The notes under the pieces are model-generated. The model searched no databases and was not told where the DNA came from. It worked only from the letters and a program-made list of their open reading frames with translations. From Ruminococcus sp. (GTDB lineage Bacteria > Bacillota > Clostridia > Oscillospirales > Ruminococcaceae), in the NCBI GenBank assembly GCA_031262495.1, contig JAISHV010000102.1:1-64000 (forward strand): a stretch of 64,000 bases of DNA. Direction: 5' to 3'. The position numbers were made by a program, and so were the translations under genes. This document shows, in pieces, positions 25,364 through 60,690 of this stretch; within the stretch, counting starts at the first letter, position 1; each line of letters begins with the position of its first letter.

Positions 25364-25396
25364 GTAGGGGCGGTCTTTGACCGCCCGCCCGCACAT
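25364..25396 (+). repeat. GTAGGGGCG hairpin element
   Basis: GTAGGGGCGGTC-TTT-GACCGCCCGCCCGC. Confidence 0.8.
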
Positions 25397-39566: not shown

Positions 39567-39589
39567 GGGCGGTCAAAGACCGCCCCTAC
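39567..39589 (-). repeat. GTAGGGGCG hairpin element
   Basis: GGGCGGTC-AAA-GACCGCCCCTAC. Confidence 0.8.
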
Positions 39590-39616
39590 AGATTCCTTAG
39601 TCGTTGCCCGACGGAC

Positions 39617-39725
39617 TGTAGGGGCGAACTGTGTTCGCCCGTTGTTTCAGAGCAAATTCAATCAATTTCTTAAATGCATATTAGTATTAGAATGTGCGGG
39701 CGGGCGAGGTCGCCCGCCCCTACAA
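39617..39725. repeat. Paired GTAGGGGCG hairpins in MITE-like inverted arrangement
   Basis: TGTAGGGGCGAAC-TGT-GTTCGCCCG ... GCGGGCGGGCGAGGTCGCCCGCCCCTACA. Confidence 0.8.
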
Positions 39726-43375: not shown

Positions 43376-43453
43376 TGTAGGGGCGAACTGTGTTCGCCCG
43401 TCAACGTAAAAACGTATTTTGGGGTAACGGGCGACCACAGGTCGCCCCTACAA
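43376..43453. repeat. Paired GTAGGGGCG hairpins in inverted arrangement
   Basis: TGTAGGGGCGAAC-TGT-GTTCGCCCG ... CGGGCGACC-ACA-GGTCGCCCCTACA. Confidence 0.85.
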
Positions 43454-49188: not shown

Positions 49189-49742
49189 TTTTTTATATCC
49201 TTTACAATATTATTATCTTGAAACTCCGCAATATTTAGTATCAGCGGTATTAAAAAACCGAGCAGTATTCCCGCCGTAACAAAAGAAGCCATACCGACAG
49301 GCTTATCGTCAATAATTCTGTAGTCAGCACCAAGCAGTGCCGCAAACCAACCGAGTGAATTTGAAGCGATACCGCCCGTAATTATCCCGGAAATTGAACC
49401 TACACAAAGCCCTATAATAAACCGTCTGATTTGTTTATTTCTGTCAGAGGTAACTTTATCGGCGTTTTCTTTAAGTGTCATCAGCCGCTCATCTGACATT
49501 CCGTCTTCATAGGTGAATTCTGCAAGGGGCGTACAGGGGAAATCTTTGCAGAAGCCGCAGTTTTCGAGTTTCTTACTGTAACAGCACTGCCTGATTTCAC
49601 AAGCACTCGAAGCAGACGTACTGTCCCAAAAACGCGGTTCATCAACAGGTAATTCTATACCATCAGCGGTAATTTTACAGCCTCTGCATATATCGGTGTA
49701 TTCACAGGCATCACAATCAAGCCCGCAGCAAGATATTCTCAT
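49164..49742 (-). CDS. Cys-rich DUF3795-like protein with C-terminal TM region
   Basis: [24 protein letters not shown]; overlaps acn and icd ends. Confidence 0.65.
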
Positions 49743-51691
49743 TATTGTTTCATTGCTTCACGGGTGTAATCAAGCAACCCGCCCGCAAGCATAATATCAC
49801 GTGTACGCGGTGTAAATTCACAAGTCACCGGGATTGCCGCGCCGTCTGTATGATTTTGGAGGATAAATTCAGATTTACCGCTCGTTATATCATTGCGAAT
49901 ACCTTTGAGTGAGAGTTTGTCGCCGCGGCTTATTCTGTCATAGTCATCGGGGTTTATGAATGTGAGCGGCAAAATCCCCGCATTTATGAGGTTCGCTTTA
50001 TGAATACGCGCAAAGCTTTTTACAATTACGGCTTTTACGCCGAGATAGAGGGGGGCTAAAGCGGCGTGTTCGCGGCTGCTGCCCTGACCGTAGTTTGAAC
50101 CGCCTACGATGAAGCTCATACCTAATTTTTCGGCGCGTTCGGGGAATTTCTCATCACAGGCTACAAAACAATGTTTTGAAATAGCGGGAATATTTGAGCG
50201 CAGCGGCAAAATCTTCGCACCCGCAGGCATAATATGGTCTGTGGTAATATTGTCGCCGACTTTGAGTGAAACTTCGGCTTCTATATCCGCTAAGAGCGGT
50301 TCTGTTTTCGGGTAAGGCTTGATATTCGGTCCGCGCAGGATTTCAACATCGTGGGCTTTATCTGCATCGGCGGGGAGTTCAACCATATTATCGTTGATAT
50401 CAAAGTTTTCGGGCAAATTGAACTCAGGCATTTCGCCTATTTCACGCGGATCTGAAAAAACACCGGTGATAGCCGAAAATGCCGCTGTCTCGGGCGAAAC
50501 AAGATATACTTTGGCATCTTTTGTTCCGCTTCTGCCCTCGAAATTACGGTTGAATGTACGGAGTGAAACACCGCCTGAGTTCGGGGATTGCCCCATGCCT
50601 ATACAGGGTCCGCAGGCACTTTCTAAAATTCGTGCGCCCGCGTCAATCATTACAGCCAAAAGCCCCGATTTAGCGAGCATTTCAAGTACTTGTTTCGAGC
50701 CGGGAGCAATAGAGAGAGACACATCAGGGTGAACTGTCTTACCTTTGAGGATATGTGCGACTTTCATCATATCTAATAGACTTGAATTGGTACAAGAACC
50801 GATACATACCTGATATACCTTGATTTTACCGATTTCGGCGCAAGATTTAACATTATCGGGCGAATGAGGACAAGCCGCCGCCGGCGCTACCGCTGACAGG
50901 TCAATTTCTATGGTTTCATCATAAACGGCGTTTTCATCGGGTTTTATTTCAACCCAATCGGCTTCTCTGCCCTGACGGCGCAGAAAATCTTTGGTAATTT
51001 CATCAGAGGGGAACACAGAAGTCGTTGCGCCCAGTTCAGCACCCATATTTGTAATAGTTGCACGTTCCGGGACACCGAGGGTTTTTACACCGTCGCCTGT
51101 GTATTCAATGATTTTGCCGACGCCGCCTTTAACGGTCAAGCGTTTTAATACCTCAAGGATTACATCCTTAGCGGCAACCCACGGAGAAAGTTTCCCCGTC
51201 AGTTTAATGTTAACGATTTTCGGATAAGTAATATAATAAGCACCGCCGCCCATAGCTACGGCGACATCAAGTCCGCCCGCACCTATAGCAATCATACCGA
51301 TACCGCCGCCTGTAGGCGTGTGGCTGTCAGAACCGAGCAGAGTTTTTCCCGGAATACCGAAACGCTCAAGGTGAACCTGATGACAGATACCATTGCCCGG
51401 GCGTGAAAAACTGATTCCGTGTTTTTTAGCAACAGAACCGATAAAACGATGGTCGTCGGCATTCTCAAAACCGTTTTGAAGCGTATTATGGTCAATGTAA
51501 GCAACAGACTTTTCAGTCTTAACACGCGGTACACCCATTGCCTCAAACTCAAGATACGCCATAGTTCCCGTGGCGTCTTGAGTGAGCGTCTGGTCTATCT
51601 TAATACCGATTTCGGTACCCTTTTTAAATTCGCCGTCAACCAAATGTGCGGATAAAATCTTTTCCGAAGCAGTTAGTGCAGTATTTCCCAT
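49742..51691 (-). CDS. acnA: Aconitate hydratase
   Basis: LLGSDSHTPTGGGIGMIAIGAGG; GSCTNSSLLDM; NYGQGSSREHAAL. Confidence 0.93.
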   Translation of the reverse strand: MGNTALTASEKILSAHLVDGEFKKGTEIGIKIDQTLTQDATGTMAYLEFEAMGVPRVKTEKSVAYIDHNTLQNGFENADDHRFIGSVAKKHGISFSRPGNGICHQVHLERFGIPGKTLLGSDSHTPTGGGIGMIAIGAGGLDVAVAMGGGAYYITYPKIVNIKLTGKLSPWVAAKDVILEVLKRLTVKGGVGKIIEYTGDGVKTLGVPERATITNMGAELGATTSVFPSDEITKDFLRRQGREADWVEIKPDENAVYDETIEIDLSAVAPAAACPHSPDNVKSCAEIGKIKVYQVCIGSCTNSSLLDMMKVAHILKGKTVHPDVSLSIAPGSKQVLEMLAKSGLLAVMIDAGARILESACGPCIGMGQSPNSGGVSLRTFNRNFEGRSGTKDAKVYLVSPETAAFSAITGVFSDPREIGEMPEFNLPENFDINDNMVELPADADKAHDVEILRGPNIKPYPKTEPLLADIEAEVSLKVGDNITTDHIMPAGAKILPLRSNIPAISKHCFVACDEKFPERAEKLGMSFIVGGSNYGQGSSREHAALAPLYLGVKAVIVKSFARIHKANLINAGILPLTFINPDDYDRISRGDKLSLKGIRNDITSGKSEFILQNHTDGAAIPVTCEFTPRTRDIMLAGGLLDYTREAMKQ

Positions 51692-51744
51692 TAGTTTTCC
51701 TCATTTTTTCAAAAAGTATATCAAATTTATTATACTATTCTCAA

Positions 51745-51910
51745 TTTAAAAAACGCCTTGCGTTTTTTAAATACTCGTCAGCTTTGCTGACGAGAGCCGC
51801 CCGTAGGGCGGCAGAGAAACCGTTCAATACTAATATTTGCAGCGTCGCTGCACCGCCGCTTTGCGGCGGCAATAAAAACATTTTTAATGTTTTTATTGAA
51901 TATTAGTATT
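51745..51910. repeat. Multi-hairpin array with nested junction
   Basis: Perfect stems at 51745-51771, 51774-51794, 51796-51812; outer stem 51826-51837/51899-51910 enclosing 51838-51852, 51853-51869, 51871-51897. Confidence 0.9.
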
Positions 51911-51993
51911 ATAACATATTTTTCGGGGAATGTCAACTGCTGCGGTGAACATTTATTAAAAAAAATCTGTAGTTTAAAAAATTAATTAAAAAA

Positions 51994-52015
51994 AAGAAAG
52001 GCAAACGCCTTTCTT
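51994..52015 (-). terminator. Intrinsic terminator downstream of ureC
   Basis: AAGAAAGGC-AAAC-GCCTTTCTT, U-run on minus strand. Confidence 0.85.
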
Positions 52016-58077: not shown

Positions 58078-58217
58078 GTAGGGGCGGGCGACCTCGCCCG
58101 CCCGCACACTCTAAAATGCGTCACTTTATAATATAAACAAAATTATCATAGTTTGAAGTTTGTCAACCGATGTGCAGAATTTTGATAATGCGGGCGGGCG
58201 AGGCGCCCGCCCCTACA
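58078..58217. repeat. Paired GTAGGGGCG hairpins in inverted arrangement, urtA-urtB intergenic
   Basis: GTAGGGGCGGGCGACCTCGCCCGCCCGCA ... TGCGGGCGGGCGAGGCGCCCGCCCCTACA. Confidence 0.85.
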
Positions 58218-60621: not shown

Positions 60622-60690
60622 ACGGGCGGGCGGGGCGCCCGCCCCTACGGAAAAAAAAAATGTAGGGGCGACCGCCCTCGGTCGCCCGTT
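60622..60690. repeat. Two tail-to-tail GTAGGGGCG hairpins
   Basis: CGGGCGGGCG-GGG-CGCCCGCCCCTAC / TGTAGGGGCGACCG-CCCT-CGGTCGCCCG. Confidence 0.85.

Follow-up and report, generated by a model that had tools for sequence, protein, structure and literature searches.

Prokaryotic MITEs such as Correia, Nezha, QMITE2 and BrickBuilt (reviewed in PMC10969869) are shorter than 500 bp, free of genes and bounded by terminal inverted repeats with a direct triplet on either flank, and they lie between genes as dispersed copies with stable stem-loops and, at one end, a promoter context. The element that we describe here, from a Ruminococcus genome, is like them in all of these respects; it differs in that its inverted repeat is short and imperfect and its interior consists of two tandem three-hairpin junctions built from perfect triloop palindromes. 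The IS5-group and PIF-Harbinger-like transposons duplicate 3-bp targets of the form ANT, TNA or TWA (PMC4482050), and here, too, we find an AT-rich target triplet of 3 bp, which is TNA in a sister family of the element; the likeness is one of triplet only, and none of the group's transposases could be linked to the element's ends.

Two further systems come close. With the GTAG-tagged REPs and REPINs (PMC3733652, PMC3116915), the element has in common small short-loop palindromes with compensatory stem variants, and the sister family carries palindromes of just that kind, but the element has no terminal GTAG tag, and a Y1 transposase was found in none of five genomes of the genus. The mitochondrial repetitive hairpin elements (PMC2800124) are likewise dispersed, intergenic units of two or three hairpins with conserved stems; they differ, in the portion of that account drawn on here, in being mitochondrial and in having neither target duplications nor terminal repeats. 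As for how a palindrome might remain a palindrome, template switching at inverted repeats homogenises the arms and inverts the loops (PMC8794818), and the portion used here of a second account says the same (PMC8604942). Perfect stems, paired arm changes and loop inversion, which those accounts describe, in the parts used here, for RNA genes and yeast coding sequences, are what we see as well, and it is we who infer the process in a bacterial repeat family.

The array beside acn

The window (the whole 64,000-nucleotide stretch of DNA that we analysed) holds six perfect triloop hairpins at 51730-51911, upstream of the aconitase gene acn, as seen both by direct scan and by folding. The original prediction had described these hairpins and a 12-bp outer stem, without mismatches, and all of them are there and perfectly paired. 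It had bounded the unit at 51745-51910, which does contain hairpins but falls short of the true unit, TTA triplets included. It had also seen one nested junction, which stands as our junction B, but the first three hairpins are likewise enclosed, by the 5-bp stem TTCTC/GAGAA of junction A, so that the architecture is one of two tandem three-hairpin junctions with the linker ACCGTTC between them (Table 1). Its recurring 3-nt loop holds for all six hairpins at this locus and less well elsewhere, since hairpin 4 of other copies of the element closes over 4 nt and in two copies hairpin 2 no longer pairs fully. Deviant loop sizes and damaged stems are two of the signs that the original prediction had itself named as speaking against a shared insertion mechanism.

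Table 1. Features of the element and of the acn locus, with the observations on which each is based
Feature	Coordinates	Strand	Basis and remarks
Aconitase gene	49742-51691	-	Pfam Aconitase, E 1.4e-114, and ORF; start codon 38 bp from element's left end
Left TTA flank	51730-51732		TTA in 10/10 copies with intact left end; fits TNA target-site duplication
Element body, 176 bp	51733-51908	+ (orientation as aligned)	BLAST of own genome: 1 of 13 places, 80-100% identity; sharp ends in alignment
Left terminal sequence TACTATTCTC	51733-51742	+	Imperfect inverted repeat of right end; TACTA common to sister family's terminal repeat
Junction A stem, 5' side, TTCTC	51738-51742	+	Folding; pairs with 51814-51818; retained by most other copies
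Hairpin 1, 13-bp arms, loop CTT	51744-51772		Arm lengths co-vary among copies
Hairpin 2, 9-bp arms, loop TTT	51774-51794		Loop AAA in copy C64; broken in C32 and C52
Hairpin 3, 7-bp arms, loop GTA	51796-51812		Pattern search and folding
Junction A stem, 3' side, GAGAA	51814-51818	+	Folding
Linker ACCGTTC, unpaired, between junctions	51819-51825	+	13-copy alignment: invariant except first base
Junction B stem, 5' side, AATACTAATATT	51826-51837	+	Folding; compensatory changes among copies
Hairpin 4, 6-bp arms, loop GTC	51838-51852		Folding; enlarged around GTAGC-AAC-GCTAC in copy C13
Hairpin 5, 7-bp arms, loop TTT	51853-51869		Folding; loop AAA in second subfamily
Hairpin 6, 13-bp arms, loop TTT	51870-51898		Direct scan and folding
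Junction B stem, 3' side	51899-51910	+	Folding; includes right terminal sequence AATATTAGTA (51899-51908)
Right TTA flank, second copy of presumed duplication	51909-51911		TTA in 11/12 copies having right end
Sigma-70-type promoter TTGACA-17-TATAAT, TG before -10	51908-51936	-	12/12 consensus matches; same arrangement at C47a
Terminator-like hairpin after upstream urease gene, outside element	51994-52015	-	Distinct from the array

The fold is as strong as it looks. As RNA, 51728-51917 reaches -87.8 kcal/mol where shuffled sequences average -40.1 (z -11.55; 0 of 200 shuffles as good); with DNA parameters it reaches -67 (z -15.86), far beyond the shuffles in both cases, and the reverse strand folds too. 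Triloop hairpins take up 113 of its 170 bases, and the next best non-overlapping stretch in the 64-kb window has at most 38, which makes the array the window's densest by far. A single terminator is indeed not enough to explain it, as had been claimed, and the hairpin that resembles a terminator of the upstream gene lies apart from it. The only open reading frame of at least 80 aa across the element is a chance frame of 86 aa, and in Rfam no family reached its gathering score.

A dispersed family and its ends

A search of the host's own genome (2.08 Mb in 104 contigs, 93% complete, with an assembly that breaks at repeats) with 51725-51920 as the BLAST query found 13 places at 80-100% identity, 4 of them cut by contig ends. 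A separate genome-wide search for hairpins 1, 2 and 3 as patterns, the kind of search by which the earlier idea of hairpin units was to be checked, led to the same set of places and, outside the family, to one weak AT-rich match only. In the alignment the copies end abruptly, at TTATACTATTCTC on the left and GATATTAGTATTA on the right, and the flanks beyond are unrelated. Because the array occurs in 13 places with unrelated flanks, it is a dispersed repeat and not a regulator specific to acn.

The repeat is about 180 bp long and runs from TTA through TACTATTCTC...GATATTAGTA to TTA, and complete copies measure 180-197 bp. All are intergenic and non-coding; their neighbours, unrelated to one another, are the genes for aconitase, a carbohydrate phosphorylase, a radical-SAM protein, a DHH protein, a sigma factor, SAM synthetase and a semialdehyde dehydrogenase-like protein. 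A further left-end match, at C77:30725, apparently lies within coding sequence and was taken as chance. The alignment separates two subfamilies whose stems have changed in coordinated fashion, and the order of the six hairpins, together with invariant linkers, is common to all copies so far as they are intact. The terminal inverted repeat, TACTATTCTC against TACTAATATC, is short and imperfect, matching at 7 of 10 positions with TACTA exact. In each of the nine copies that have retained both ends and whose right terminus is intact, TTA stands to the left and to the right. This would fit a duplicated TTA, but as the complete copies all show this one triplet, it may instead be a fixed part of the end in this family.

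The family is thus short and without coding capacity, dispersed, sharp-ended among unrelated flanks, and bounded by terminal inverted repeats, and the array is, in our judgment, very probably one copy of a non-coding dispersed transposable element of the MITE type, about 180 bp long. The best reading of the family as a whole, to go by its sequences, would be that of a MITE-like family which is new and whose interior is unusually rich in hairpins.

Where else does it occur? The acn orthologue is present in four genus-mates at 80-81% identity, and there the 500 bases upstream lack an array, with 0-33 of them lying in perfect short-loop hairpins; the comparison of orthologous intergenes, added to the 12 other places in the host's own genome, overturns the earlier framing of the array as unique to acn. 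These genus-mates are diverged from the host, and their acn neighbourhoods differ from that of the host. No copies were found in their genomes, and no full-length copies in 198 other genomes of the family, three of which (G060, G132, G201) have matches of 36-51 bases only. The conserved linker had no match in GTDB or viral contigs; phages gave no match, and plasmids gave matches of 43 bases only, such hits as there were being short and AT-rich.

More is to be learned from a second repeat family in the same genome, of about 120-177 bp with ends TACTAATATGCA, which shares the TACTA end. Its flanking triplets (beyond the ends TACTAATAT) are TNA, and the middle base on the left equals that on the right in 22 of 28 rows, where 10.95 are expected and 0 of 10,000 shuffles did as well; the 28 rows are those left after merging, one locus being counted twice and one row having a doubtful right end. 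The flanks of the sister family are a 3-bp TNA target duplication. The motif ATACTAATAT occurs 83 times in the genome, against 14 for the reversed pattern.

Some other traits of the sister family deserve record. The family carries two GC-rich palindromes with a GTAG foot (TGTAGGGGCGG...CCGCCCG), and in 17 of 19 sampled copies the left end comes directly after a co-directional gene. Two copies, at C5:10976-11445 and C57:3237-3522, are 470 and 286 bp long, enlarged by further nested sequence with GTAGTACCCAGCACCAA-like ends. In the window itself, GC-rich short-loop palindromes (GGGCGGTC...GACCGCCC and variants, at 25368-25386, 39567-39719, 43381-43447, 58082-58212 and 60624-60687) resemble these GTAG-REP-like ones and account for much of the window's other triloop excess.

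What, then, would move such elements? A transposase acting in trans that recognises the TACTA... ends and duplicates a TNA triplet (a duplication demonstrated, by statistics, for the sister family only) has probably moved the element, and the acn site before insertion would be expected to hold a single TTA, as in CAAATTTATTATAACATATT. Against the MITE reading, no autonomous partner with TACTA ends was found in the assembled genome (93% complete) at most of the 83 exact end sites, which were inspected, and the DDE_Tnp_1 fragments that do occur adjoin another end; a partner of this kind is usual for a MITE but not essential, and here it may have been lost or have escaped assembly. The profile search (PF01609) found just two of these in the genome, both at contig ends (C103 and C56), whose common end CCCTAATCCCGC... 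differs from that of the element; the end that they share, starting CCCTAATCCCGCAAATTAAG, apparently belongs to an unrelated insertion sequence. The one 2-kb candidate, on C39, was tried as an autonomous element and rejected, as the gene it encloses resembles a chemotaxis receptor and not a transposase.

One might instead suppose a REP- or PATE-like element on which a Y1 transposase (IS200/IS605 or RAYT) acts while the DNA is single-stranded and folded, and the original prediction had thought of a folded single-stranded site. The extreme hairpin content of either strand, as DNA too, would suit such a route, as would the sister family's palindromes, whose GTAG foot is like that of the GTAG REPs (PMC3733652). 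But the ends of our element are TACTA, its terminal palindrome bears neither a GTAG nor a CGTC tag at the foot, and a search for Y1_Tnp genes was negative in all five genus genomes, the host's own (93% complete) included, while 5 of 14 controls were positive. The sister family, moreover, has target duplications. To our knowledge, Y1 transposition makes none. This HUH route is left without support, and we hold it to be very unlikely.

Promoter, probable leader and orientation

At acn the element abuts a consensus promoter whose -10 box is made of the host's TA, the TTA triplet and the element's last base; when the flanks are joined in silico with a single TTA, TATAAT is still formed. Insertion at this -10 box may have left the promoter intact. 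The acn message, to judge from the promoter's position, should start within the element, near 51901, with the reverse strand of both junctions ahead of the ribosome site, and acn transcripts would carry that strand in a structured leader of about 210 nt. Since the consensus promoter stands at the right end, the array is probably part of the acn 5' leader, and to this extent the structured acnA leader that had been proposed is physically probable; as a leader of gene-specific origin it fails, for the array is a dispersed repeat and is missing at the acn of four genus-mates. A riboswitch-like leader that evolved with acn and belongs to it could claim the strong fold and the promoter that puts the array into the leader, but with the array at 12 other places and absent upstream of acn in the genus-mates it is largely refuted, and we give it next to no credence.

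It is harder to dismiss the thought that the element is a mobile 5'-leader regulator, its copies kept because the transcribed reverse strand tunes the genes downstream. Of the 10 copies whose left end is intact, 9 have a gene start on that side, so directed that the element would be its leader (one-sided P 0.011; the exception is C13), and the genes behind the copies include those for aconitase, glycogen phosphorylase, SAM synthetase and a DHH protein. Promoters abut the right end at C17 and at C47a (where the match is perfect and in the same place) and, more weakly, at C32, and the pairing of stems has been preserved through double changes. An orientation that looks non-random (9/10) also weighs against the MITE reading, of which, as a purely neutral element, it is not required. 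Yet one-way insertion at -10 boxes, whose TATAAT contains TAA, could produce the bias, and so could selection on orientation, with harmful ones purged; the promoter enrichment at right ends is suggestive only, with P from 0.01 to 0.08 depending on background; C32 and C52 have a broken hairpin 2; and Rfam has no match. We consider such a regulator unlikely.

If insertion favours -10 boxes and a single orientation, the constancy of TTA would be accounted for as well. One may go further and imagine a MITE of fixed orientation that inserts at -10 boxes, regenerates TATAAT and gives several metabolic genes a shared post-transcriptional control by way of the two-junction RNA, a proposal that strikes us as quite unlikely. 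A regulatory role of the element is, on the strength of these arrangements, possible; the MITE-like element remains our preferred reading.

Perfect hairpins and nested palindromes

How do the hairpins stay perfect? Copies differ by paired changes, at alignment columns 121/201, 123/199 and 171/195 and in hairpin 4: A-T to C-G and C-G to T-A in the stem of junction B, A-T to T-A in hairpin 6 and several types in hairpin 4. In some copies hairpin 1 has lost one base from each of its arms. C64 has AAA in place of the TTT loop of hairpin 2, and the second subfamily shows the same replacement in hairpin 5. Together, the inverted loops and the arms that change in pairs suggest that it is template switching that maintains the palindromes: switching at the hairpins during replication would copy arm onto arm, and the palindromes would stay perfect. 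Selection on the folded RNA or DNA could be an alternative source of the paired changes, but loop inversion favours a process at the level of DNA over selection on the fold.

Palindromes also seem to grow. In copy C13, hairpin 4 has expanded around GTAGC-AAC-GCTAC, and the genome has the 13-bp triloop palindrome GTAGC-NNN-GCTAC (mostly AAC or GTT) at 40 places, with GC-rich hairpins around it in 31 of 38 distinct contexts, while the reversed pattern occurs at 0. From C13 and the dispersal of this palindrome we conclude that nested growth at hairpin tips does seem to occur in this genome. Hairpin 2 of C32 and C52, rearranged and incompletely paired, holds the related GCAGC-GTT-GCTGC. We note as well that GTAGC-AAC-GCTAC occurs inside a repeated GACATTC-type sequence, like a very small insertable unit.

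Was the whole array, then, built up step by step from independent small palindromes of common origin? The dispersed palindrome, absent in reverse and present within hairpin 4 of C13, and its relative in hairpin 2 would be the sort of material from which such a history could be made. Against it stand the same six-hairpin order and linkers in all intact copies, from which it follows that the acn locus received a finished unit; the confinement of hairpins 1, 2 and 3 to the family within the host's genome, bar one weak AT-rich match; and the genomes of relatives searched here, in which no intermediate arrays with fewer hairpins were found. Stepwise assembly seems to us rather improbable, and of the nested insertions first proposed there remains the hairpin in C13, the array as such having spread as one unit of about 180 bp.

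A striking structure beside a metabolic gene is thus explained by a repeat family and not by a regulator of that gene. Thirteen copies of six palindromes make a compact natural case for how template switching keeps hairpins perfect, and the TACTA-ended families offer a handle for finding a transposase of TNA targets in this lineage. If the bias in orientation should reflect function, transposition would be distributing one RNA leader among many genes.
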